From Colwellia polaris (GTDB lineage Bacteria > Pseudomonadota > Gammaproteobacteria > Enterobacterales > Alteromonadaceae): 64,000 nt of DNA. Both the position numbers and the translations under genes were made by a program. The notes beneath the pieces were generated by a model. The model was not told the origin of the DNA. It saw only the letters and a program-made list of their open reading frames with translations, and did no database searches. The stretch spans positions 186,001 through 250,000 of the forward strand of contig NZ_NBOE01000004.1 in assembly GCF_002104515.1 (NCBI RefSeq), written 5' to 3'. Below, piece by piece: positions 26,161 through 37,853 of the stretch (position 1 is its first letter; the number at the start of each line of letters is the position of its first letter).

Positions 26161-26958
26161 TTAACCATTTCGTTCTTTTATAAAGTCATCCCAATTAAAT
26201 TTACAGTAACGGCCAAACTTCAAATAATCAGAGCTTTGTGGTTTGAATTGCTTATTACTCCATGCGTAGTCACAATACATATTAGCTAACAATACCAAAC
26301 TCTGAGTACTTTGAGGCTTATCAAAGTTCTCTAAATGTGCTGCTCTTAACTTGTCTATGTTCAAGTTTTTGCCTGCACGTTGGCCATAATATTTAGTGAC
26401 CGATGTGTTACCACCGCCCACCGCCCAACTTAACAAATCACTACCATCAGCATCTTTGGCAAAGAATACTTTATCTGTTAAATCATGAAAAAACTCATAG
26501 CTAATGCCGCTATACGCTGCTCTCATATAGGGCGTAATTTGGTTATAGTCAGCCTTGCTTGCCAACTTAGGCGTAGCTATTTTTAAAAACCTAAAGGTGC
26601 CAGGTTGATTACCTTGAGCTGCTGCATGAAAAGCAGTTTCTCCATCTTTATTCTTTAAACTAATTTTTGCGCCATTTTTTAGTAAGTATTCAATTGTTTT
26701 GTCTTGCCCTTTGAAAGCAGCCATCATTAAAGGTGTATTACCAATATCGTTTCTACTGTTGATAACATCATTACCTTTTTCTGCAACCAGCGCTTTTATG
26801 CCATTAACATCGCCTTTGGCCGCTAAACCATGAATACCATTGCCTGGCATAACACTTTTTAAGCCTGCTGTGGCGCTATTAAGTAATTCTGACGTGCTTT
26901 TGCAGCCAGTAGCCAACAAAGACAAGACTACCAATATTAAGAATTTATTCGTTTTCAT
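26161..26958 (-). CDS. Ankyrin-repeat lipoprotein
   Basis: A 265-aa protein with a lipobox (LLATGC, Cys at residue 19). Residues 40-150 contain ankyrin repeats, clearest in IGNTPLMMAAFKGQDKTIEYLLKNGA and DGETAFHAAAQGNQPGTFRFLK. The C-terminal third has two Cys in MYCDYAW and GRYCKFNW. Ankyrin repeats bind other proteins, and here the binding would take place on the periplasmic side of a membrane. It lies 15 bp downstream of the 504-aa lipoprotein gene in the same operon. Confidence 0.85.
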   Translation of the reverse strand: MKTNKFLILVVLSLLATGCKSTSELLNSATAGLKSVMPGNGIHGLAAKGDVNGIKALVAEKGNDVINSRNDIGNTPLMMAAFKGQDKTIEYLLKNGAKISLKNKDGETAFHAAAQGNQPGTFRFLKIATPKLASKADYNQITPYMRAAYSGISYEFFHDLTDKVFFAKDADGSDLLSWAVGGGNTSVTKYYGQRAGKNLNIDKLRAAHLENFDKPQSTQSLVLLANMYCDYAWSNKQFKPQSSDYLKFGRYCKFNWDDFIKERNG

Positions 26959-26973
26959 AAGGATACCCTCAAG

Positions 26974-28488
26974 TTATTTGTTTTTTAGTTTGATGTTTAG
27001 TGCTTCATAGACATGAGGGATATACTTGTTATCCTTAGAGTCTGATATGATAAATCGACCTTCAATTCCTTTGAGCTTAAAGCTAGAAACAAAGAATAGG
27101 CTTCTAGTTCCTGTTCCTCTATGCAGATCGTCTGTTTTTAAGTATTTTAAGGTCACCTCTTCGATACTAGGTTTACCCGCGGTTTTCTTTCCTATCGCCG
27201 TTATTAGTGCTTCGCTGATATCTAATTTAAAAGACATGCCTCCTCTATCACGATAGGAGTTATAGCCTTCAGCGATTAGTTCTGTGCCAAAAGCGAACCT
27301 TTGGTCTTGGTTTTTCAAATGAGGGGTTATTTCTTTTGATGCGATATTTACGGCCAGTTTTGTTGAAATGGTATAAAGACCAAATAGAGGTTCAATATGT
27401 TCCCGTGTATCTGAATGAGCAACCCTCAACCAGCCTTTTTTATTAAATGATGTGGGTATATTTAAGTCTTTGACTTTAACTTGCGAGTCTAAAAGCTCTT
27501 TTTGGGAGTAAGTTTTCTTAAACTCAGTAACTTTTGCTTTGTGCTTTTTCAATAAATCATCTAAAGCAAATTCATTAATGCCTTTATAAACTAACCTTGA
27601 ACAAAAAGCTCCTAAGCATATATATTCAGCTGATAAGGAAAACCCTTCTCCATCACCATTTTGGGCGGTATAAGCAAAGATATTATCAATCTCTGAAAAA
27701 TACTTTAAATCTTTAACAACGGGGGCGCTTTCGTAAGACTTAATTTGCTCTGCTCTTTTTTTCTTTTTAGCAACTTCTTCTGCTTTCTTTTTAGCTAGAG
27801 ATTCAGCAATACGATCTTTGATGGCTTGCTTTCTTGTTAGTTCTTTCTCTTTACCGTCACTATCTTCTTCTGCAACATTGAACGTCCAATAAGCGCCATC
27901 GTAGTACCAACCGTAAAAATCAACTGCAACGTGCGGTGATTTTCTGCTGCCTTTACCTGCTTCTTTATACGATGCCAACTGACAAAATTTATACGCTTCC
28001 TTTTCTGTATCAGGCAGGGCAAATAGGTACATGTTCTCTTGAAGTTTCTTGTAGCTCATACCATCCGCTTGAGCGCAAGACCAACCTTGGTCAAGGTATG
28101 TTTCTTCGTTTACAGCTCCTTTACCATTATTATCAAAAAACTTACCGTTAAATGACATTGCATCAGCAAAGTATTTTATTCTTACGTTTTTGTCTGGCTG
28201 CTTTTCACCGAAAACAATAAAGCCTTCAACTTCATCCATTTCGATAGTTGTATTAGGCTTACGTAAGATATAATTAAATCGCGGGGCCTTTATTGCTTCG
28301 CTCATACTAATACTTGAGCTATTGCCAAAAAACACCATTTTCGTATTTTGAATCTCTCCTTCTCTATCAAGCTGAACTAAATCGCCATTTGTTAGGCGAG
28401 CATATACACCATAAGTTTCAGGGACTTCAGGTTCACCACAAGCAGTCAACCATAAGGTTGCTATAAGTGGGGCTAGTTTTTTTATCAT
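26974..28488 (-). CDS. Large orphan lipoprotein
   Basis: A 504-aa protein with a lipobox (LWLTAC, Cys at residue 17). The N-terminal half is beta-rich. A Lys/Glu-rich helix at about residues 222-250, probably a coiled coil, separates it from a C-terminal half that I cannot assign. AAGGA lies upstream of the ATG. It is the first gene of the exported-protein operon and lies opposite the AraC-type regulator, with both promoters in the 211-bp gap. Confidence 0.8.
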   Translation of the reverse strand: MIKKLAPLIATLWLTACGEPEVPETYGVYARLTNGDLVQLDREGEIQNTKMVFFGNSSSISMSEAIKAPRFNYILRKPNTTIEMDEVEGFIVFGEKQPDKNVRIKYFADAMSFNGKFFDNNGKGAVNEETYLDQGWSCAQADGMSYKKLQENMYLFALPDTEKEAYKFCQLASYKEAGKGSRKSPHVAVDFYGWYYDGAYWTFNVAEEDSDGKEKELTRKQAIKDRIAESLAKKKAEEVAKKKKRAEQIKSYESAPVVKDLKYFSEIDNIFAYTAQNGDGEGFSLSAEYICLGAFCSRLVYKGINEFALDDLLKKHKAKVTEFKKTYSQKELLDSQVKVKDLNIPTSFNKKGWLRVAHSDTREHIEPLFGLYTISTKLAVNIASKEITPHLKNQDQRFAFGTELIAEGYNSYRDRGGMSFKLDISEALITAIGKKTAGKPSIEEVTLKYLKTDDLHRGTGTRSLFFVSSFKLKGIEGRFIISDSKDNKYIPHVYEALNIKLKNK

Positions 28489-28699
28489 TACGATAGGTTC
28501 CTTGTCTGATTTATATTTTAATTATTCACCTGAACTGATGAATTTTTCTTCTATTAAAACATCAAGATAAAAAATAAACCTTCCTTTAATCGCGCATTAA
28601 AAAATAATTTATTTTTTGGAAAAATTGGTGCGTTTTTCTTAGCTAGTGAATCGCTAAGGCGTTTGCCAAATTAAACCATCACTTTTTTAACTGACTGAG

Positions 28700-29119
28700 A
28701 TGATGGCAAAACCTAAACCATTTACCCCCGAGCTATTTGAAATAAGAGTTAAGCATGCAATGGAACGACTTATTGCTGATAAGCAACCTTTGATTGGTGA
28801 GGAAAGAGGGGATATTCGGGTTACTGACATCGCTGATATTTTTAAGGTAAATGTGGCTACCTTTCGCCGCTGGTGTATAACCTATGTCAACCAAAGTCCG
28901 AGTCAGTATTTAGCAAATTATCGAATTGAAAGGGCTAAACAGTTACTTAAACAAGGGGTTAAGCCTTCAAAAGTGTCTGAAATGTTGGCATTTGGTGAGC
29001 ATAAAATATTTTCAACCACATTTAAGCGATATCAAGGGAATACACCTTCAGAGGTTATGAAAATGCAATTTAGTACTTATTCGCCCAATCATACAGCATC
29101 GAATAAAAAGGGACTGTAA
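28700..29119 (+). CDS. AraC-type HTH regulator without a sensor domain
   Basis: A 139-aa protein made almost entirely of a DNA-binding domain. The first helix-turn-helix is seen in VTDIADIFKVNVATFRRWCITYVNQSPSQYLANYRIERAKQLLKQG, and the second in KPSKVSEMLAFGEHKIFSTTFKRYQGNTPSEVMKMQF. The order and FxxxTP-type end match the AraC family. It lacks the usual ligand-binding or dimerisation domain, so another protein may control it or it may act constitutively. It is divergent from the lipoprotein operon, which it may regulate. Confidence 0.85.
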   Translation: MMAKPKPFTPELFEIRVKHAMERLIADKQPLIGEERGDIRVTDIADIFKVNVATFRRWCITYVNQSPSQYLANYRIERAKQLLKQGVKPSKVSEMLAFGEHKIFSTTFKRYQGNTPSEVMKMQFSTYSPNHTASNKKGL

Positions 29120-29442: not shown

Positions 29443-31764
29443 CTAGGGGCTACTATCGATAGATGAAAGTTTGTTCACAAGTTTTTCAAACCTTGCCAGA
29501 TATTGGTTGGTAGGAGCAGACATTTTTAACATTGCTATGGCCTGGTTCAAGTAGTTAAGAGCATTCGCGTTATCTTCAACTTTTACTAAGGTTTCACCAT
29601 ATCCTCCTAATTGTACAGCTCTGATATATCCTTGAATGTTTAGGTTTTCTGTTGTCTTTAATGATTTTTTGTGCCACTCAATAGAGGTTTTATATTCGCC
29701 AATATCTCTATTGTTTGCAGCGATATTATGATAAATCACTGCCAATGCAATAGAGTCTTTAAGGTCTTCTCCTTTTAACGAGTTCAGTGCCATCATTGAA
29801 TACTCCAATGCTTGTTTAGGCTTTTTTAAATCTCGCCCATAAATGGTGGCAATATTGTTGTAAGTTGCATGAACTCTTGGGTGACCTTCAGGTGAAATTT
29901 CCTGAAACATTTCAGCGGCTTTCTTTAAGTTTGTTAAACCCATGGCGAAGTTACCAAGCCCAGCTTGCACAGCTCCAAACTGTTGTAAATGTAATGCTGT
30001 TCGTGGATGACTGACATCCCCATACATACGAATGTCTAAATCAACTGCTTTTGCAAAATATTCAAGTGCTTCTTCATTTTTTCCTTCCATCATGAATGAG
30101 CTACCTAAGTTACCAAGCACCGTTGCCACCATAAAATTATCGATTGGTAACAATGATTTATATCCACTAAGAGATTTTTGATAAAAACGTCTGCTTTCTT
30201 GATAAGTTCCACCTGAGTGCAATGCTAATCCCATTAAATTATAAGCTTCATAAATAATTTTTTCGGTATTGGCATTATTGATGCTGTTTTCAATTGCTGT
30301 TTTTGCATCACTTTTTCTGCCTGAAGATATATAAACTTGTGCAAGTTCATTTTGCGCAATATAAAAAGACTCATCATTTTTATCAAATAATGGAAGCGCT
30401 TTATTGTATAACTCTTCGGATTCTTTCAGTAAACCTCGCCCTTGATAAACCTTAGCAATAGCCTTAAGTAAATGTGCTTTAACTTTTGGACTTTTATTTA
30501 CGCTTTCAAGTGCTTTCTTACTACTGTTATCAATAAGTTCTTCAACAGTTAATACGCTGTTTTTATCAATATCTGAAGCATCAAACATATCAGTTAAAAA
30601 AGACGTAACTTCTTCGCTTACTTCAACTTGCTCAATGAGCTTTGTATTGCTGCTATATAGCGAATAAGAGCTAATAGCAATGGTAATAATGAGTGATAAT
30701 GAAATACTTGAGACTAGTTTATTTCTTTGAAAAAACTTTGAGATTTTGTACATCAAAGTATTGCTGTATTCGCTAATAGGCTGTTTATTAATAAATTTAG
30801 TGATGCTCTGTGATAACTCGAAAGAAGATGAATATCGCTTTTCGATATCACTTTCAGTTGATTTTGAAATTATTGCCTTAACTTCATTGGGAATGACCAT
30901 ATCCGAACCGAGCATTGCTGTGAGGTTTTTACCAAGAGCATAAACGTCACTCGTAGTTGATAACTTATTTCCTGCCAATTGTTCAGGGCTAGCGTAGTCT
31001 CTGCTTACAGCTTTTAGGTGGTTATATTTTTGTTCATTTTTTAAAGTATTACCATTCATTGTGCTGTTGATATTTTGAGCGATACCAAAATCCATTAATT
31101 TGGGTTCACCTTGTTTATCAACTAGGATATTCGATGGTTTAATATCTGCGTGAATGACCATATGTTGATGAGCAAACTGTACAGCCTTACAGACTTTCTT
31201 AAATAGTTTTAAGCGTTCTTGGAACCTTAGCGCATTTGCGTTGCAGAATTGATCAATAGCAATGCCATCAACATATTCCATCACCATGTAAGGGAGATTG
31301 TTTTCTGTTTTATCAACCGTATATATTTTGGCGATATTTGTATGATCTAGGTTAGCTAAATGCTGTGCTTCTTTTTGTAAGAAATCCTCACCTGCTAACG
31401 CTGCAATAGAAGGATAGACAAATTTTATTGCAACTTTTTGTGCTAATTGACCATCATTGCGTTCGCCAAGATATACTGCGCCCATTCCGCCTTGGCCTAA
31501 TTTTCTAGTTAACTTATATACGCTAACTTGTGTGTTGATTAAATCATGAATTATATTGTCATCAACTAGTTGTTCGGCCTGTTTTCCGATGAGTTGCTTA
31601 AAGGTTGTTTGTTTTTTATTTTCTTCATGCGCGGTAATTAAGGCGGTTGTTTCAGTATAAAATTCATGTTCACTACTCATTAAAATAGATAGTTGAACTG
31701 CCATGTTATCTTCATCAATTGCCAGTAAATGTTGAAATAATGCTAGTGGAGTATCAAAGTTCAT
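29443..31764 (-). CDS. Membrane Ser/Thr protein kinase with C-terminal TPR repeats
   Basis: A 773-aa protein. Residues 84-325 form a Hanks-type kinase: GQGGMG loop at 90-95, K114, E132, HAD at 205-207 within HADIKPSN, DFG at 225-227 and SPEQ in place of APE. The usual Arg before the catalytic Asp is Ala, making it a non-RD kinase. One helix (about 350-371) follows, then about 380 residues of TPR repeats (for example VATVLGNLGSSFMMEGKNEEALEYFAKAVDL), probably periplasmic. It lies 30 bp behind an ECF sigma gene. In Vibrio parahaemolyticus a comparable kinase, PknT, activates its sigma factor EcfP by phosphorylation, which suggests the same logic here. Confidence 0.92.
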   Translation of the reverse strand: MNFDTPLALFQHLLAIDEDNMAVQLSILMSSEHEFYTETTALITAHEENKKQTTFKQLIGKQAEQLVDDNIIHDLINTQVSVYKLTRKLGQGGMGAVYLGERNDGQLAQKVAIKFVYPSIAALAGEDFLQKEAQHLANLDHTNIAKIYTVDKTENNLPYMVMEYVDGIAIDQFCNANALRFQERLKLFKKVCKAVQFAHQHMVIHADIKPSNILVDKQGEPKLMDFGIAQNINSTMNGNTLKNEQKYNHLKAVSRDYASPEQLAGNKLSTTSDVYALGKNLTAMLGSDMVIPNEVKAIISKSTESDIEKRYSSSFELSQSITKFINKQPISEYSNTLMYKISKFFQRNKLVSSISLSLIITIAISSYSLYSSNTKLIEQVEVSEEVTSFLTDMFDASDIDKNSVLTVEELIDNSSKKALESVNKSPKVKAHLLKAIAKVYQGRGLLKESEELYNKALPLFDKNDESFYIAQNELAQVYISSGRKSDAKTAIENSINNANTEKIIYEAYNLMGLALHSGGTYQESRRFYQKSLSGYKSLLPIDNFMVATVLGNLGSSFMMEGKNEEALEYFAKAVDLDIRMYGDVSHPRTALHLQQFGAVQAGLGNFAMGLTNLKKAAEMFQEISPEGHPRVHATYNNIATIYGRDLKKPKQALEYSMMALNSLKGEDLKDSIALAVIYHNIAANNRDIGEYKTSIEWHKKSLKTTENLNIQGYIRAVQLGGYGETLVKVEDNANALNYLNQAIAMLKMSAPTNQYLARFEKLVNKLSSIDSSP

Positions 31765-31794
31765 TGTTGTTCTTATTATTTTTATTTTATCCGT

Positions 31795-32367
31795 TTAACA
31801 CTGGGTGCGTAAGTAAGCTTTTGCAGCTGAAAGTTCACTATAAATGGTTGATTTTTTTAGTGTCAGCTCAGAGCCAATATCTTCAATATCATAACCTAAA
31901 AAGTAATGTAGTAAAGCAACTTGGTATGATCTAGGAGCGATCTTAGCTAGCTTAGATAATGCACTATCGAAAATAATATAGGGCTCAGGATCTTCTGATA
32001 GTGAAATAAACTTTGCTATATTTTCGCTGTTATTCGACCTTTTTTGTGCACCTTTAGCTTTTAAATCGTCGAGCAACATCCATCTTACAAAAGAGGCTAA
32101 CGACAGAAAAAACTGCTCTCTATTATCAAAAACTTCTTTGGGTGGAGATAATTGAACAAGCACCTCGTGCAAAAGTGAGGTAGTGTTGGGTAGCTGCTCT
32201 AATATGCTATGAGATGAAGCTTTATAAGTAATTTGCTTTTTAACTATACCCTTTAGATGATAGTAAATAATACTTCGTAGCTGATTCGCACTTTTTAAAT
32301 CATTATGAACTATCCAGCTATTTAACAACTCGGTAACAGGTTCGTGTTGTGCAGTATCTATTGTCAT
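31795..32367 (-). CDS. ECF-type RNA polymerase sigma factor
   Basis: A 190-aa protein of the ECF-like class usually paired with Ser/Thr kinases. Region 2 is seen around FFLSLASFVRWMLLDDLKAKGAQKR, and region 4 near SYQVALLHYFLGYDIEDIGSELTLKKSTIYSELSAAKAYLR. No anti-sigma gene is adjacent; the downstream kinase is the likely activator. It is separated by 30 bp from each neighbour and should be co-translated with them. Its promoters cannot be predicted from this window. Confidence 0.88.
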   Translation of the reverse strand: MTIDTAQHEPVTELLNSWIVHNDLKSANQLRSIIYYHLKGIVKKQITYKASSHSILEQLPNTTSLLHEVLVQLSPPKEVFDNREQFFLSLASFVRWMLLDDLKAKGAQKRSNNSENIAKFISLSEDPEPYIIFDSALSKLAKIAPRSYQVALLHYFLGYDIEDIGSELTLKKSTIYSELSAAKAYLRTQC

Positions 32368-32397
32368 ATTATTCTCTCAAAGCAATAAACTAATCGA

Positions 32398-34293
32398 TTA
32401 TTCGTGTTCAATTAAAGCTAATGACTCAGCAATATGATAAATATTTTTATAATCATACTTGATGGTATCAGGCCTTTTTTCTTCTAAATCTGACCAACTT
32501 AATAAGCAATCGTGGGTTTTCATTGCTTCGTTTTTTGATTCTCCATATCGCCAATTATTGACAATATGAAATGCATTCCATCTATTATGTTCAGTTTTTG
32601 CTAGCGCATGAATTCGATGGGTGAGTTGCTCATTATTGAGTCCCGTTTGTTTTTTAATAAATTTCATCCAGCGCTGAATTAAAGCCATGTTTAGATCTGA
32701 AAATTCATTTAAATACGGCAAATAGTCCAAAGCTTCTTGTTTTGTTGCATCTGAATCATCAAAGGTGATCGTAGGTATTGAGCCACCTAAAACTAATAGT
32801 TTCATGGGAAAATGACGTTTTTCAGTAAAGTTTGATTTACGCTTAAAAAGAGGTTGGTTAACCCAATGTAGCCACTGAGTTGAGTCTACTGTTTCTTGGT
32901 CGTGTTTTTCTATTAGAACGGATAATGCGTCAGGCGTTAAAGCACTTAAGCCGAGTTCTGTTTTTGCATAAGTGTTATGGCTTCGCTGCGCAAGTACTTC
33001 GCTGTTGCTATCTAATAGTTGGTTGAAACTTAATACTTTCTTTAAAGCGCCGAATGATCTTATTTGTTGATGCTCTATATTGTGATTTAAGGCGTTGTAA
33101 TAATGAAATGTTGTTGTGTTATCCGTTGTTTTCGACTGCGCCAAGGTGCACATATCATATAAGCGTAATATGCTTTTTAAGGCGATATTTTCATCTTCAT
33201 CACTGACAATAATATGATTAAAATTCGACGGGTTTTGAAGCTGCTGTTCAGAGCTTACAAAAGTAATGTCCCATAAATCTAAGCCTTTACCATTACAATG
33301 CTCAAACACTTGATGATGAGTAATAAAAAAGTCATTGGGCTGAGTTGATAAAACCGTGATCTCGATTTTTTTATGATTACAAAAGTGAGCCAAAAGCAAC
33401 AGCTCTCTGAGAATAGATTCTCCTATTTCACCAAAACCTGAAATAAGCACACTTACCGGTTCGCTAGTAATAGAGCTCGTATCTGTGTTTTCTCCTAGCC
33501 CCATAGATTGCACTAAGTCGATAGCTATTTTTTCGCTTAAGTTAAATATATTAATTAACAAGCCAGTAGATTGTTTTTTAATATTATCAATTGAATAAAA
33601 AGCGCTAGGTTCAAAGAGTTTGTAGCTCATTACATTGTCTATTCCAATATGACAATGAAGCTCAGGTTTATAAGGTGACTCAACTAAGGTTTTTAAAATA
33701 GCTAAATTAGTTAAGTCGCAGCCTGTTATAGCGACCATTGCTTTTGCGTTTAAAATAGCGGCTTTTAATTGAATAGCGATATCTGAAGCATCGCCCAGTA
33801 TCAGAGTAACTTTTTTCTTTTTATACTGAGTAATTAATGGATTGCTATGATCTTTCTCTATAATAACGACTTTTTCTTTTTTATTGAGTAAATCATCAAT
33901 TAAATAGGCGCTCTCGCTATTTAAGCCGAAAATAATGTAATGATTTTTGTAATATTTAACTAATATGTTGCTTTTAAACCAGCTACCAGCGGCAAAAAAG
34001 GTTGCAAATGCAATAGAGAAAAACACAGTGCAAACCGCAGAAAGTCTTGCTGCTGAAATTGCCCAATGCTTTAATGCTTCATCGGCAGGGGAAGAAATTA
34101 AAGAAAATAATTTAAATGTACTGTAAAAAACATCAAACCAACGGGTTAATTCTGGGTGAGAGATATTGTTTTTAACAACATATACCGAGCTAAAACCATA
34201 AATTCCTAAGGTAATCGTAGCGACCACAAAAAATGCTAAAATGATAATGCCTCTAATACTTAGCGGGGCAGATGCACTTTTATTAGCTTTCAT
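32398..34293 (-). CDS. Membrane protein with tandem RCK/TrkA-N-like folds and a RyR domain
   Basis: A 631-aa protein. Two hydrophobic helices (about residues 13-35 and 83-103) flank a 45-residue loop, like a two-helix channel but without a K+ selectivity filter. Residues 118-215 form a TrkA-N/RCK-like Rossmann fold (YIIFGLNSESAYLIDDLL, VVIIEKD, LILGDASD). A second begins at about 281 (VLISGFGEIGESILREL). The last 75 residues match the RyR domain known from ryanodine receptors and prokaryotic proteins: HNRWNAF at 569-575, WRYG at 581-584 and KTHDCLLSW at 592-600. RyR domains are thought to bind nucleotide-derived ligands. It is second in the TIR-led operon. Confidence 0.85.
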   Translation of the reverse strand: MKANKSASAPLSIRGIIILAFFVVATITLGIYGFSSVYVVKNNISHPELTRWFDVFYSTFKLFSLISSPADEALKHWAISAARLSAVCTVFFSIAFATFFAAGSWFKSNILVKYYKNHYIIFGLNSESAYLIDDLLNKKEKVVIIEKDHSNPLITQYKKKKVTLILGDASDIAIQLKAAILNAKAMVAITGCDLTNLAILKTLVESPYKPELHCHIGIDNVMSYKLFEPSAFYSIDNIKKQSTGLLINIFNLSEKIAIDLVQSMGLGENTDTSSITSEPVSVLISGFGEIGESILRELLLLAHFCNHKKIEITVLSTQPNDFFITHHQVFEHCNGKGLDLWDITFVSSEQQLQNPSNFNHIIVSDEDENIALKSILRLYDMCTLAQSKTTDNTTTFHYYNALNHNIEHQQIRSFGALKKVLSFNQLLDSNSEVLAQRSHNTYAKTELGLSALTPDALSVLIEKHDQETVDSTQWLHWVNQPLFKRKSNFTEKRHFPMKLLVLGGSIPTITFDDSDATKQEALDYLPYLNEFSDLNMALIQRWMKFIKKQTGLNNEQLTHRIHALAKTEHNRWNAFHIVNNWRYGESKNEAMKTHDCLLSWSDLEEKRPDTIKYDYKNIYHIAESLALIEHE

Positions 34294-34358
34294 TAAATTT
34301 CCCTTTATTTATAACGTTTATAATATTCAATTTTTATATCAACATGGCCAAACAGAGT

Positions 34359-37300
34359 TTATTCACTGGTAAAGTGCGCGCAACCTCTGTCTTGCCATTG
34401 CTGCGCTGATAGTGCGGGTAAAAAGAATGCTCTTCTTTCTGCTGGCGTTAGGCAGCTTCTATTTATTGGTAAGCTGTTAATTGCTTGTTGTTCATAGTCT
34501 TTAATACTAACCATTTTTTTATCAGTTTTTTTATCAGTTTTTTTATCAGTTTTTTTCAGCATTTTTTGGAAAATGGGGGTGACTTTTGCGGTAGGAAAGC
34601 GAGCGTTAGGTGTTAAATACTCTGTAGTAACAATACTCTTGCTATCATTTGAAAATTTAGAAGGTAAATCTTTAGTCACTTGTGAAAAAGTCTCAATTTT
34701 CTCCATGGTATTTACATCCCATAAAACGCTGGTATTACGCTCGGGGTTAACAGTACTCGATGTTGTTAATAAATATTGTTGATCACTGGAAATGCTAACA
34801 TCCACCAGAAAAACATTATCTAAAGAGTGTCTTTTTAACATACTTGGTTGTTCGTCTTTAAACTTCCAAACAGCAACATAGCTACCATCTATAAAAATTG
34901 CACCATTACCGTCAGGGTGGAAAATAAAATCTCTTATCCAGTGTCCATCCGAATAGAAAAGGGTGGATAAATTTTCAACAAAATCAGCAGAGAATAAGCT
35001 TAATTTCTTAGTATCATGTTGCACTAATATTTTGTCGTCAAAAGGGCTGAAAATAGCTATTTTGGGGTTTACTAAATCAGAATATGTTGCCTCGCGCTTA
35101 CCGGAAATAAGGTCAAATAATATAACCTCAGAAGGTAAGTTTTGTTTCTTAAGGTCTGAAGAAAAATAGTCAAAGGTTGAAACTAACAGTACCTTTTTGC
35201 CTGCTTGGTTAAACTCATAAGAGGGTATTAAATTATTGCTAGCTATACTTTTAGTCACCCCTGTTAGTAAGTTTCTATGTTGTAACACTTCGTTTTTAAA
35301 TGCCTGTTGTTCTTGCGGTTTTTGAAGTACGTAAATTATGCTATCGCCATCAGGTGAGAATTTAATATCGCGATAGAGTTCTCCTTCAAATATAAATTCA
35401 TCAAGCTTTTCTCCTGTTTGTAAATCATAAACCAATGCTTCACTTTCGAATTTATTGTTAACTTCTCTGGTAATTAATAGTTTATTCTGCTTCGGAAAAA
35501 TATAACTTTGTAGTGTGTTTTTACCAAAATCAAATTCGTGTATTACGGTATTTTTTTTAATATCCCATATAAAATGTTTACCATTACGTTGGCTAACAAC
35601 AACAAATTCATTATCAAAACTGTAATGTATATTTTTGATAAAGTAAGACTCTTTTTTCAAAAATAATGGACTGTTTGCCTTACTCGTTAGTGACCACGAT
35701 ACTATTTTCTCGCCAAAAACTGTAAAAAAATTACCCTTGATAATGGTAGAAAATATGTCAATTAAGTTTGTTGCTTCCAAGCTATGATCAATAACTTTAA
35801 TTAGTTCATGTGATTGAGTTGACCAGAGTATGCTTTTTTTGTCGTTAACAGACGAGGCTAATACCAAGTCGCTGCCAGGGCTATAGCTGGCATAAGAAAG
35901 GTGACTTTCGTTGAGCTGATAACGATGCAAAATTTCTCCAGTGGCTATCGACCACTCTACAGCTTGATTACTATAATCTGATAACGTTAGCAGTTTTTTG
36001 TTATCTTGACTGAACTGTGCACTTAACAACTTAGACGATTTTTCAGATATTTTAATGGTTTGGAGTATTTCTCCTGTATCAGCTGACCATATCGCAACTT
36101 TACTTCTGTCTATTTCACTAAATATCATTGCTCCGTTTGGACTAAAGTGTGCTTTTAAAGTGCCACGGTTACGCTTAGTATTAATATCAGAAAAATCATT
36201 AATAAATTTATGCTGAATAAGTTCACCGGTTTCTAATGACCATACATAAGTGCCGTGATTTACTGCCACGCTGAGTATTTTTGTGCCATCAAGGCTGAAA
36301 ATAGGCTTTATCGGGATAACATTTTTTATGCTGATAGTAGTGGTTTTTTCTGCGCTCTCAGCGTCAAATACATCTATATAGCTAGTAACGGCGCTCTCAG
36401 CTTTGCTTTTATTAGTTTGTAACCATGCGGGGATTGTTTTTTCGGGCATTACAGAGGTAATGGCCAGCAAATTTTTAACGGGATGAAACGCAACGCGATT
36501 TAATTGCCTATCAGGGTAATCAAACTGCTGTACTTGTTCTCCTGTTAATACTGACCAAACGTCTACTGCCTTTGCACTTGTGAAAATAAAGCGGCTATCG
36601 TAACTAAAGTCAAAATTTAATATTCTTGATTCAGCGGTGATTTTAGTCACAGGCTGGCCATCATCAAGTGACCATATAGTTAATGTTTGATTTTTTACCA
36701 TCGCAACATAGCGGCCGGTCTTGTCAAACTTTACTGAATGTCTCGATAGTGGGTGTTGGGCATTAATGTTCATAAGCCGATTGATTTTTTTTAAGGGCTC
36801 ATGGAAAGACAACTCTATGCCTTTGAGCAAAGGCCTATCACCGCCATACAGGCCTGGAATAGCATTTAACGATAATAGTAATGCTGTGTCATATTCCCCT
36901 TGCTCGCTTTGGTTTTTCGACATTTGAGTAAGAAATTCACTCTGTAAAACCAGTGCACCATTTTTTTCTTTTATCGCAAGTTGTTGTTGAAAAATAGCTT
37001 CCTCTTTCTGAAAATAAGCAAACACACCAGCCCCAACAGCCAAAATAGCTAATATTGCAACAGCAGCTAACCAACGTCGCAGTTTTTTTGCTTTTAAGCG
37101 CTCTTGCTCTAATTGATATTCTTTATCACGTTGAGTAAGTTCACCTAAAGGAACACCTAAAATTCCGGCGATGACTTTCAGTAACATTAAATGCAGTTGT
37201 TGTTGATAGGCATTTACCTTTGCAGTGATTGACTTTTTATCAAGCTGTGTGGTGTTTTTTAGGTGCTCGCGATAAGCGGCCGGCGTAGTAAAGCCTTGCT

Positions 37301-37853
37301 CGGGTTTACCATTATTATTTATTCTAAAATCTGCAGCGATTGGCTCCGCGTGCTTATCAGTAGCATTACCTTCTTGATCGTATTCGTACTGTAAAGGAAC
37401 CGGAAAACACTCATCTGCTTTAGTAAAGCCTAACTTTTGTTTACCTTCGTCCCAACTGGTATTGGGCTCTCCATCTATCATGGCAGCAATGATGTGCTGA
37501 GAGTTGCCTAATTTTTTGAAATAATCTATTTCGTCGGCAACATACGTTGATGCTACAGCTCTAGGTGAACATAAAACAATTAATAAGTTTGTTTGCTCTA
37601 ATGCACTAACAATTGATGTACCTAAATCGGCATGCGCAGGCAGTTCTTGCTCGTCTCTAAATACGGGATAAATACGAGGGGGAATAGTATCTCCTCGGCT
37701 ATTTTTCTGCCCGACTAAATCATTTGGCACTTCATAAGTTTCAATGGCTTGGTGTAGCCATGTAGCCCACTTTCTACCTTGTGTTTTATTATCTGCATGG
37801 CGGTATGAGATAAACGCGTGGTATTTGAAAGATGAATTTTTACTGTTTGCCAT
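34359..37853 (-). CDS. TIR domain - transmembrane - WD40 repeat protein
   Basis: A 1164-aa protein. The N-terminal TIR domain (about residues 9-150) starts with YHAFISYRHAD, has FRDEQEL at 65-71, and carries the putative NADase Glu as E108 in STYVADEIDYF. Residues 210-258 are helical and basic, followed by one membrane helix at 261-281. The rest (about 350-1090) consists of WD40 blades, with repeated motifs such as ILNFDFSYDSRFIFTSAKAVDVWS and SAQFSQDNKKLLTLSDYSNQAVEWS. The end, with CLTPAERRAFFLP and a final WQDRGC, is a tail common on prokaryotic WD40 sensor proteins. TIR domains in bacteria cleave NAD+ or make cyclic ADP-ribose signals. First gene of a four-gene operon. Confidence 0.9.
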   Translation of the reverse strand: MANSKNSSFKYHAFISYRHADNKTQGRKWATWLHQAIETYEVPNDLVGQKNSRGDTIPPRIYPVFRDEQELPAHADLGTSIVSALEQTNLLIVLCSPRAVASTYVADEIDYFKKLGNSQHIIAAMIDGEPNTSWDEGKQKLGFTKADECFPVPLQYEYDQEGNATDKHAEPIAADFRINNNGKPEQGFTTPAAYREHLKNTTQLDKKSITAKVNAYQQQLHLMLLKVIAGILGVPLGELTQRDKEYQLEQERLKAKKLRRWLAAVAILAILAVGAGVFAYFQKEEAIFQQQLAIKEKNGALVLQSEFLTQMSKNQSEQGEYDTALLLSLNAIPGLYGGDRPLLKGIELSFHEPLKKINRLMNINAQHPLSRHSVKFDKTGRYVAMVKNQTLTIWSLDDGQPVTKITAESRILNFDFSYDSRFIFTSAKAVDVWSVLTGEQVQQFDYPDRQLNRVAFHPVKNLLAITSVMPEKTIPAWLQTNKSKAESAVTSYIDVFDAESAEKTTTISIKNVIPIKPIFSLDGTKILSVAVNHGTYVWSLETGELIQHKFINDFSDINTKRNRGTLKAHFSPNGAMIFSEIDRSKVAIWSADTGEILQTIKISEKSSKLLSAQFSQDNKKLLTLSDYSNQAVEWSIATGEILHRYQLNESHLSYASYSPGSDLVLASSVNDKKSILWSTQSHELIKVIDHSLEATNLIDIFSTIIKGNFFTVFGEKIVSWSLTSKANSPLFLKKESYFIKNIHYSFDNEFVVVSQRNGKHFIWDIKKNTVIHEFDFGKNTLQSYIFPKQNKLLITREVNNKFESEALVYDLQTGEKLDEFIFEGELYRDIKFSPDGDSIIYVLQKPQEQQAFKNEVLQHRNLLTGVTKSIASNNLIPSYEFNQAGKKVLLVSTFDYFSSDLKKQNLPSEVILFDLISGKREATYSDLVNPKIAIFSPFDDKILVQHDTKKLSLFSADFVENLSTLFYSDGHWIRDFIFHPDGNGAIFIDGSYVAVWKFKDEQPSMLKRHSLDNVFLVDVSISSDQQYLLTTSSTVNPERNTSVLWDVNTMEKIETFSQVTKDLPSKFSNDSKSIVTTEYLTPNARFPTAKVTPIFQKMLKKTDKKTDKKTDKKMVSIKDYEQQAINSLPINRSCLTPAERRAFFLPALSAQQWQDRGCAHFTSE
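34514..34559. repeat. 12-bp tandem repeat in the TIR-WD40 gene
   Basis: Three full 12-bp units (T7 followed by ATCAG) and a partial fourth. On the coding strand they encode successive KKTD units near the C-terminus. Whole-unit changes keep the frame, but slippage in any of the four 7-base homopolymers would shift it. Confidence 0.9.

Follow-up and report, generated by a model that had tools for sequence, protein, structure and literature searches.

Thoeris pairs a TIR gene, ThsB, with a neighbouring gene for ThsA, a protein of the SIR2-SLOG type (PMC11204291) or the Macro type that has a receiver domain for ADP-ribose signals. Phage RyR (R12-type) proteins, the RyDEP proteins, have been described in a preprint (PMC13232231), where residues H75, W78, H100 and D117 contact the ligand and the founding protein cleaves 2'- and 3'-cyclic ADP-ribose (cADPR); of eight homologs tested, six bound the signals and none cleaved them. 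The Swarozyc/DUF4062 proteins have recently been reported as TIR-like NADases in defence (PMC13174449, preprint). In sigma factors of the extracytoplasmic function (ECF) group ECF43, a threonine at the position of the DAED motif is phosphorylated by the neighbouring kinase, and EcfP carries STTA there (PMC8999054); such sigma/kinase pairs, including the threonine phosphorylation by the neighbour kinase, are also described in PMC13147305. The locus compared with these systems lies in a 64,000-nucleotide stretch of Colwellia polaris (contig NZ_NBOE01000004.1, positions 186,001 to 250,000; genome of 4.43 Mb), hereafter the window, where a TIR-WD40 gene and a gene for an RCK-RyR membrane protein (Module A) are followed by an ECF sigma factor gene and a kinase gene (Module B).

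These four minus-strand open reading frames (ORFs) are separated by gaps of 65, 30 and 30 bp in the ORF list of the window, in keeping with the 30-65 bp of an earlier note made on this DNA from the sequence alone. They encode a 1164-residue TIR-WD40 protein with a transmembrane (TM) helix (34359..37853, minus strand), a 631-residue 2TM-RCK-RyR membrane protein (32398..34293, minus), a 190-residue ECF43-like sigma factor (31795..32367, minus) and a 773-residue membrane Ser/Thr kinase with TPR repeats (29443..31764, minus). Pfam matches, counted when over the gathering cut-off, and the TM scan agree with the note on the TIR-TM-WD40, ECF sigma and TPR kinase contents. A contig search with the RyR protein as query gave two relatives, in Cognaticolwellia aestuarii (L010, 94% identity) and Pseudoalteromonas lipolytica (L011, 81%), and in both of these the TIR-WD40 gene lies directly 5' of the RyR gene, with no sigma factor or kinase after the RyR gene in the DNA examined (the P. 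lipolytica contig is 6.2 kb). A TIR-RyR pair without sigma factor and kinase was also found in a third genome (L024), in reversed order, with a 2-bp gap and a distantly related RyR protein. The DNA homology with C. aestuarii (95.4%, blastn) stops at position 32376, which is 22 bp past the RyR stop and just short of the sigma ATG, marking a module boundary in this interval; outside this block, similarity is 80.6% and 89.2% in the two flanks. The sigma/kinase pair, for its part, has no recognisable TIR or RyR near it in any of the five sigma neighbourhoods read (L060-L064, 19.5 kb each), where the TIR and RyR profiles gave no match and a weak BLAST match to RyR (E 7e-4) lies inside the L062 kinase. 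Our best explanation is that the locus consists of two separate modules placed head to tail, of which Module A would be a two-gene nucleotide-alarm circuit and Module B an independent regulator; taken as a whole, we see this explanation as about evenly poised between right and wrong.

The TIR domain of the first protein (aa 14-130; 37464..37814, minus strand) is matched by TIR_2 and ThsB_TIR over cut-off, and its catalytic-type Glu108 is invariant in 12/12 and 10/10 aligned TIRs (overlapping sets). A TIR profile run against the PDB matched plant, animal and bacterial TIRs, several of them named NAD+ hydrolases, and aligned the Glu108 column with the Glu of the plant S-x-W-C-x-x-E motif, which we take to be catalytic; a single-sequence TIR search of the PDB gave no TIR match. 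A hydropathy scan places the TM helix at aa 261-279 (37017..37073, minus), and since the 15 residues before it hold six K/R and those after it one, the TIR domain is predicted to lie inside and the WD40 part outside. In this outer part (aa ~290-1164; 34362..36986, minus), ANAPC4_WD40 is the sole propeller model over cut-off, the WD40 repeat model scoring just under (26.4 vs 27).

This WD40 sensor has been exchanged between a conserved TIR and a conserved RyR protein. Across eight relatives in which both parts were measured (L010, L024, L105-L109 and L111, with L110 and L112-L114 left out), the TIR is 60-98% identical and the WD40 part 21-27%, except in C. aestuarii (94%). The P. lipolytica pair shares 83% of the TIR part with the window (87/105 residues, covering the TIR end that is present, as the contig ends within the gene and its start is missing), 23% of the WD40 part and 81% of the RyR protein, and its DNA similarity runs through the TIR end and the TM helix, ends 30 bp past the helix and returns 13 bp before the RyR ATG. 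Between the window and C. aestuarii, the ratio of nonsynonymous to synonymous substitution is ~0.05 for the TIR, ~0.13 for the RyR and ~0.23 for the WD40 part. Such a pattern would be expected if the recognition domain changes while the signalling parts stay constant, and through the exchange one could ask what receptors of this type recognise. The TIR domain was found in 12 plasmid records, and a profile scan of three of these 12 TIR neighbourhoods found no RyR. About 2.2 kb beyond the C. aestuarii pair, fragment-like ORFs with integrase and reverse-transcriptase domains (L010:14072-15450) are signs of past mobility.

In the second protein, a hydropathy scan found two TM-like stretches, and Pfam matched TrkA_N (RCK; aa 119-205; 33679..33939, minus strand) and an R12-type RyR domain (PF02026; aa 555-608; 32470..32631, minus; 34.4 bits against a gathering cut-off of 27.4). 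The earlier note had read two RCK-like folds and an RyR domain here, of which the RyR and one RCK fold are borne out by profile; the second Rossmann-like stretch (~aa 280-365), for which a reading of the sequence and a low-confidence model speak, has no profile match. The spacing of H569, W572 and H594 (0, +3, +25) equals that of RyDEP H75, W78 and H100, and D614, just past the domain, stands at +45 where D117 stands at +42, so that on this matching, made by spacing to published positions and not by alignment, the domain appears to keep all four RyDEP ligand residues. No match to the RyR protein was found by tblastn in plasmid and phage records, and no relative was confirmed among viral contigs. 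Left out of the loci read were matches covering the query's first half or its TrkA part only (G051, G154, G162, G010, G019 and G113) and one on a 3.5-kb contig (G546).

PF02026 is rare, being found in 8/196 family, 4/394 order and 8/299 phylum genomes (overlapping samples). The surroundings of all these matches, and of L029 from the RyR-protein search, were read, and the RyR membrane proteins were grouped by hand into ten lineages (window/L010/L011/L023, L024, L022, L084, L078, L029, L025, L080/L081, L083 and L079), leaving out a standalone RyR (L028), a RelA_SpoT fusion (L077) and small or phage-like cases (L026, L027, L082 and L085). Both TrkA_N and RyR are matched in the window, L022, L024, L025, L079 and L083, TrkA_N only in L029 and RyR only in L078 and L081, and in L084 the RyR domain is encoded on its own, next to a gene for a TM protein that Pfam does not match. 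For nine of the ten lineages, a TIR gene, a gene for the TIR-like DUF4062 or a SLOG-like gene lies no more than 2.2 kb away in one member or more. Five of them have a TIR gene, confirmed by Pfam, at 65 bp in the window, 2 bp in L024, 1397 bp in L022, 57 bp in L084 and 2175 bp, on the other strand, in L078; in L025 the nearest TIR is 9.4 kb away. In L029 a gap of 26 bp separates a DUF4062-STAND gene from that of the RCK-RyR-like protein, and a SLOG-like gene adjoins the RyR or is one gene off in L025, L080/L081 and L083, with a patatin in addition in L080/L081 and L083 (confirmed in L081 and L083); the L079 neighbourhood is cut by a contig end. From per-genome TIR numbers the chance of five in ten is ~1e-8 (14-kb span), a figure that ignores defence-gene clustering and the hand-made grouping, and the count shows an association, not a fixed pair. 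The three of the 196 family genomes with a TIR at 83% identity or above are also the three with an RyR protein at 64% or above.

Several other arrangements were seen among these RyR loci. The RyR membrane protein, patatin phospholipase and SLOG-like protein of L080, L081 and L083 look like another nucleotide-triggered membrane-attack system. In L028 (9183-15858), a standalone RyR, a TPR-S gene and an nSTAND1-WD40 gene, whose start is DUF4062-like by eye, form a tight row with gaps of 55 and 24 bp. An 840-residue protein (L077:7041-9563) with RelA_SpoT near its start and RyR at its end may join an alarmone synthetase to a sensor of ADP-ribose. ORFs of 129-313 aa with an RyR domain occur at L085:1099-1488, L026:9693-10085, L027:9285-9998 and L082:8734-9675, where those of L085 and L027 lie among genes that by eye are phage-structure-like, resembling the setting of phage RyDEP.

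A SLOG-like domain appears as a third partner in these neighbourhoods. The L024 RyR protein ends in a C-terminal domain homologous to free-standing SLOG-like proteins, a fusion of the SLOG-like domain to RCK-RyR, and a SLOG-like protein with a GxTGHR motif lies beside distant TIR genes (32-36% by BLAST) in five of six loci (L115-L119, not L120), L118 and L119 being almost identical. With the SLOG-RyR fusion and neighbours added to the SLOG-TIR neighbours, TIR-SLOG, SLOG-RyR and TIR-RyR neighbours therefore all exist. A SLOG-like profile built without L025 and L083 recovers both (E 5e-15, 2e-32). Pfam gave no match on four whole SLOG-like proteins; pieces of the domain gave weak matches to DprA (5/8), YAcAr (4/8) and YpsA (2/8), below cut-off in the table listed, which support the SLOG label, and the profile matched DprA only, and weakly, in the PDB. 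The L115-L119 TIR proteins, of 637-742 aa, with their SLOG-like neighbour form a recurrent pair in the family.

As in Thoeris, the TIR gene of Module A, with ThsB_TIR over cut-off and the catalytic-type Glu kept, adjoins a gene for a putative receiver of an ADP-ribose signal, and the L024 relative carries a SLOG-like domain, of the kind used by SIR2-SLOG ThsA. Unlike Thoeris, the pair is without a ThsA of the SIR2-SLOG or Macro type, its receiver being a 2TM-RCK-RyR protein with only TrkA_N and RyR over cut-off, and the TIR is predicted to be part of a membrane receptor with WD40 outside. PADLOC listed no Thoeris model for the TIR protein, and while the pair may work like Thoeris, it is not filed as Thoeris because ThsA is absent. 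The likeness to phage RyDEP lies in the PF02026 domain and the H, W, H and D ligand residues, whereas the window RyR is encoded by the host, carries TM helices and RCK in the same protein and is placed beside a putative signal maker. With Swarozyc/DUF4062, NADase defence would be common ground, and a DUF4062 gene adjoins the RCK-RyR-like protein of L029, but the window gene combines TIR_2/ThsB_TIR with a TM helix and WD40 and has no STAND NTPase match. The TIR-RyR link may already stand in Burroughs et al. 2015 (NAR), a work said to treat SLOG, TIR and nucleotide systems. Besides PMC13232231, no work linking RyR domains to Thoeris-type signals in microbes was found among the matches listed, and RyR is not mentioned in PMC9503650 or PMC7159879.

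In Module B, the sigma factor (Pfam Sigma70_ECF) scores 100.6 with TIGR02999, under the curated cut-off of 126.15, and has matches, mostly weak, in 45 of the 196 family genomes. Its closest relatives (L060, L061 and L062; 74%, 79% and 48% identity) lie with a kinase and a homolog of the small AraC-type regulator found by Pfam beside the window pair (28700..29119, plus strand), and two more distant ones (L063 and L064, 34%) with a kinase only. At aa 61-64, where canonical ECFs carry DAED, the window protein has NTTS, in common with L060-L063, and the kinase gene (Pfam Pkinase and TPR families) lies 30 bp away, an adjacency kept in L060-L064, all of which agrees with the kinase-linked ECF sigma factor of the earlier note. 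By the DAED replacement and the adjacent kinase, the two appear to be an ordinary ECF43-like pair of the EcfP-PknT kind. As in EcfP-PknT and EcfK-PknS (PMC8999054, PMC13147305), a DAED-less ECF sigma factor with Thr in that place sits beside a membrane Ser/Thr kinase, and the window pair differs in the TPR part, predicted outside with the kinase inside from the charges around the TM helix (hydropathy scan), in the AraC-like neighbour and in its likely target, a lipoprotein-like gene (26974-28488). A conserved non-coding element (28552..28584, minus) stands 5' of that gene, within 82 bp that are 85% similar between the window and L061, and the genes that follow it and its counterpart (L061:6382-6409, minus), next to the sigma/kinase pair in each case, are secreted-protein-like. 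The genome contains the exact core of the window element a single time; a scan of the window allowing three mismatches gave one copy of the longer form and no copy 5' of the TIR gene. The element is a likely candidate promoter read by the ECF43-like sigma factor, whose target would probably be the lipoprotein-like gene, and Module B as a whole (sigma factor, TPR kinase and AraC-like gene) may act as an independent phosphorylation-controlled regulator.

Gene content, conserved residues, recurrence, the module boundary and the sensor exchange are established at the level of the DNA and its translations, and the circuit proposed for Module A builds on them. The periplasmic WD40 propeller would sense an envelope event, e.g. 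phage attack, whereupon the cytosolic TIR would cleave NAD+ to an ADP-ribose-type signal, either a cADPR isomer or ADP-ribose (ADPR). The RCK protein with its two TM stretches would bind this signal through its RyR domain, and a change of state in its channel-like membrane part may lead to growth stop or cell death as an immune response. Recurrence of the pair without the sigma factor and kinase, the TIR, DUF4062 or SLOG genes near RyR lineages, the SLOG-like fusion in L024, the exchange of the WD40 part, the occurrence of the closest TIR and RyR proteins in the same three family genomes and the sigma/kinase pairs found apart speak for this circuit, and together with the kept signal-making and signal-binding residues, the recurrence supports the proposal of the earlier note that a TIR signal is read by RyR/RCK, though not the four-gene setting in which it was placed.

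That setting was of a single system, in which the kinase and sigma factor give the transcriptional output of a TIR signal and its RyR/RCK reader. It draws on the common strand and short gaps, on a terminator scan of the window that listed no site between the RyR and sigma genes (counts in the promoter and terminator scans were not above shuffles) and on L029, whose own sigma/kinase pair lies 2.7 kb from the SLOG gene of a SLOG/RyR/DUF4062 cluster, which leaves room for some link. However, each pair occurs without the other, the C. aestuarii homology breaks between them, and the non-coding element of Module B precedes a lipoprotein-like gene. In a profile scan, moreover, only one of 35 other TIR or RyR loci held a sigma homolog, namely L029, whose sigma factor is itself part of the profile, and L025 and L111 have kinases without a sigma homolog of this kind. 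The earlier note had named relatives lacking the TIR or RyR genes as a sign of chance adjacency, and sigma/kinase relatives without both were indeed found, the three closest having the AraC-like gene instead. The single system, which we regard as very improbable, was rejected on the recurrence of each pair without the other and the homology break, and the sigma factor and kinase are better kept out of models of the TIR-RyR system without new evidence.

Within Module A, the role of the second protein can be read otherwise. TrkA_N/RCK, as a Rossmann fold, commonly has NAD as its ligand, which would suit an RCK part that resets or tunes the response by sensing NAD or ADPR while the RyR serves as a brake, hydrolysing or soaking up the TIR product as in phage RyDEP. 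His569 and Asp614 match the RyDEP catalytic dyad H75/D117, and phage RyR counteracts such signals (PMC13232231), so the window RyR could be brake and not effector; on the other hand, the RyDEP homologs tested there mostly bound the signals and in no case cleaved them, the TIR-linked L024 has no evident Asp at that position (GNNE), and two TM helices are needless for a soluble sponge, all of which makes a brake quite doubtful. We also consider it unlikely that the TIR-WD40 protein works by itself as a suicide receptor depleting NAD and that the RyR gene beside it is a loosely linked defence-island neighbour, since the pair re-associated independently in L024, where the gap is 2 bp and the RyR protein divergent, and TIRs of other types lie beside RyR in L022, L084 and L078. 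Several observations nevertheless weigh against the two-gene alarm circuit. Among 19 related TIR places in the 196 family genomes, the RyR is adjacent in three (window, G730 and G675), a minority, so the TIR protein may act alone; for ten TIR places of 52-85% identity the flanks read, which contig ends restrict on one side in L109, L110 and L114, contain no RyR; and in G604 the closest RyR (64%) and TIR (83%) homologs lie ~123 kb apart on one contig. The RyR protein of L023, in the window lineage, has other neighbours, its nearest TIR being 4.9 kb away and of a different kind. PADLOC gave only a weak SAVED-TIR match (E 0.0017) for the TIR protein and none for the RyR protein, and AlphaFold models of the two were poor (mean predicted local distance difference test scores of 38.7 and 56.4, from three close sequences each). 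By eye, the loop between the two TM helices (YSTFKLFSLIS) shows no TVGYG-type sequence, the selectivity filter motif of K+ channels, a difference from RCK-gated K+ channels.

Should the two-gene circuit be true, TIR-based immunity would gain a new class of receiver. A more specific form, which we put forward tentatively and think possible but not probable, is that a transmembrane TIR receptor with an exchangeable, outward-facing WD40 sensor makes a cADPR signal that directly gates an RyR-domain channel, i.e. a prokaryotic form of the cADPR-ryanodine-receptor axis of animal cells, used as an immune circuit. Whether cADPR acts directly on ryanodine receptors is an old question in animal biology. 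With a bacterial putative signal maker and an RyR membrane protein, it would be testable using two purified proteins; the same question is raised in PMC13232231.

On the far side of the TIR-RyR pair lies an HD-domain gene that was matched in only three of 17 genus genomes, one match being partial, so the block is variable. Near the sigma/kinase module, an ankyrin-repeat protein found by Pfam (26161-26958, minus strand) has a start that reads by eye as lipoprotein-like.

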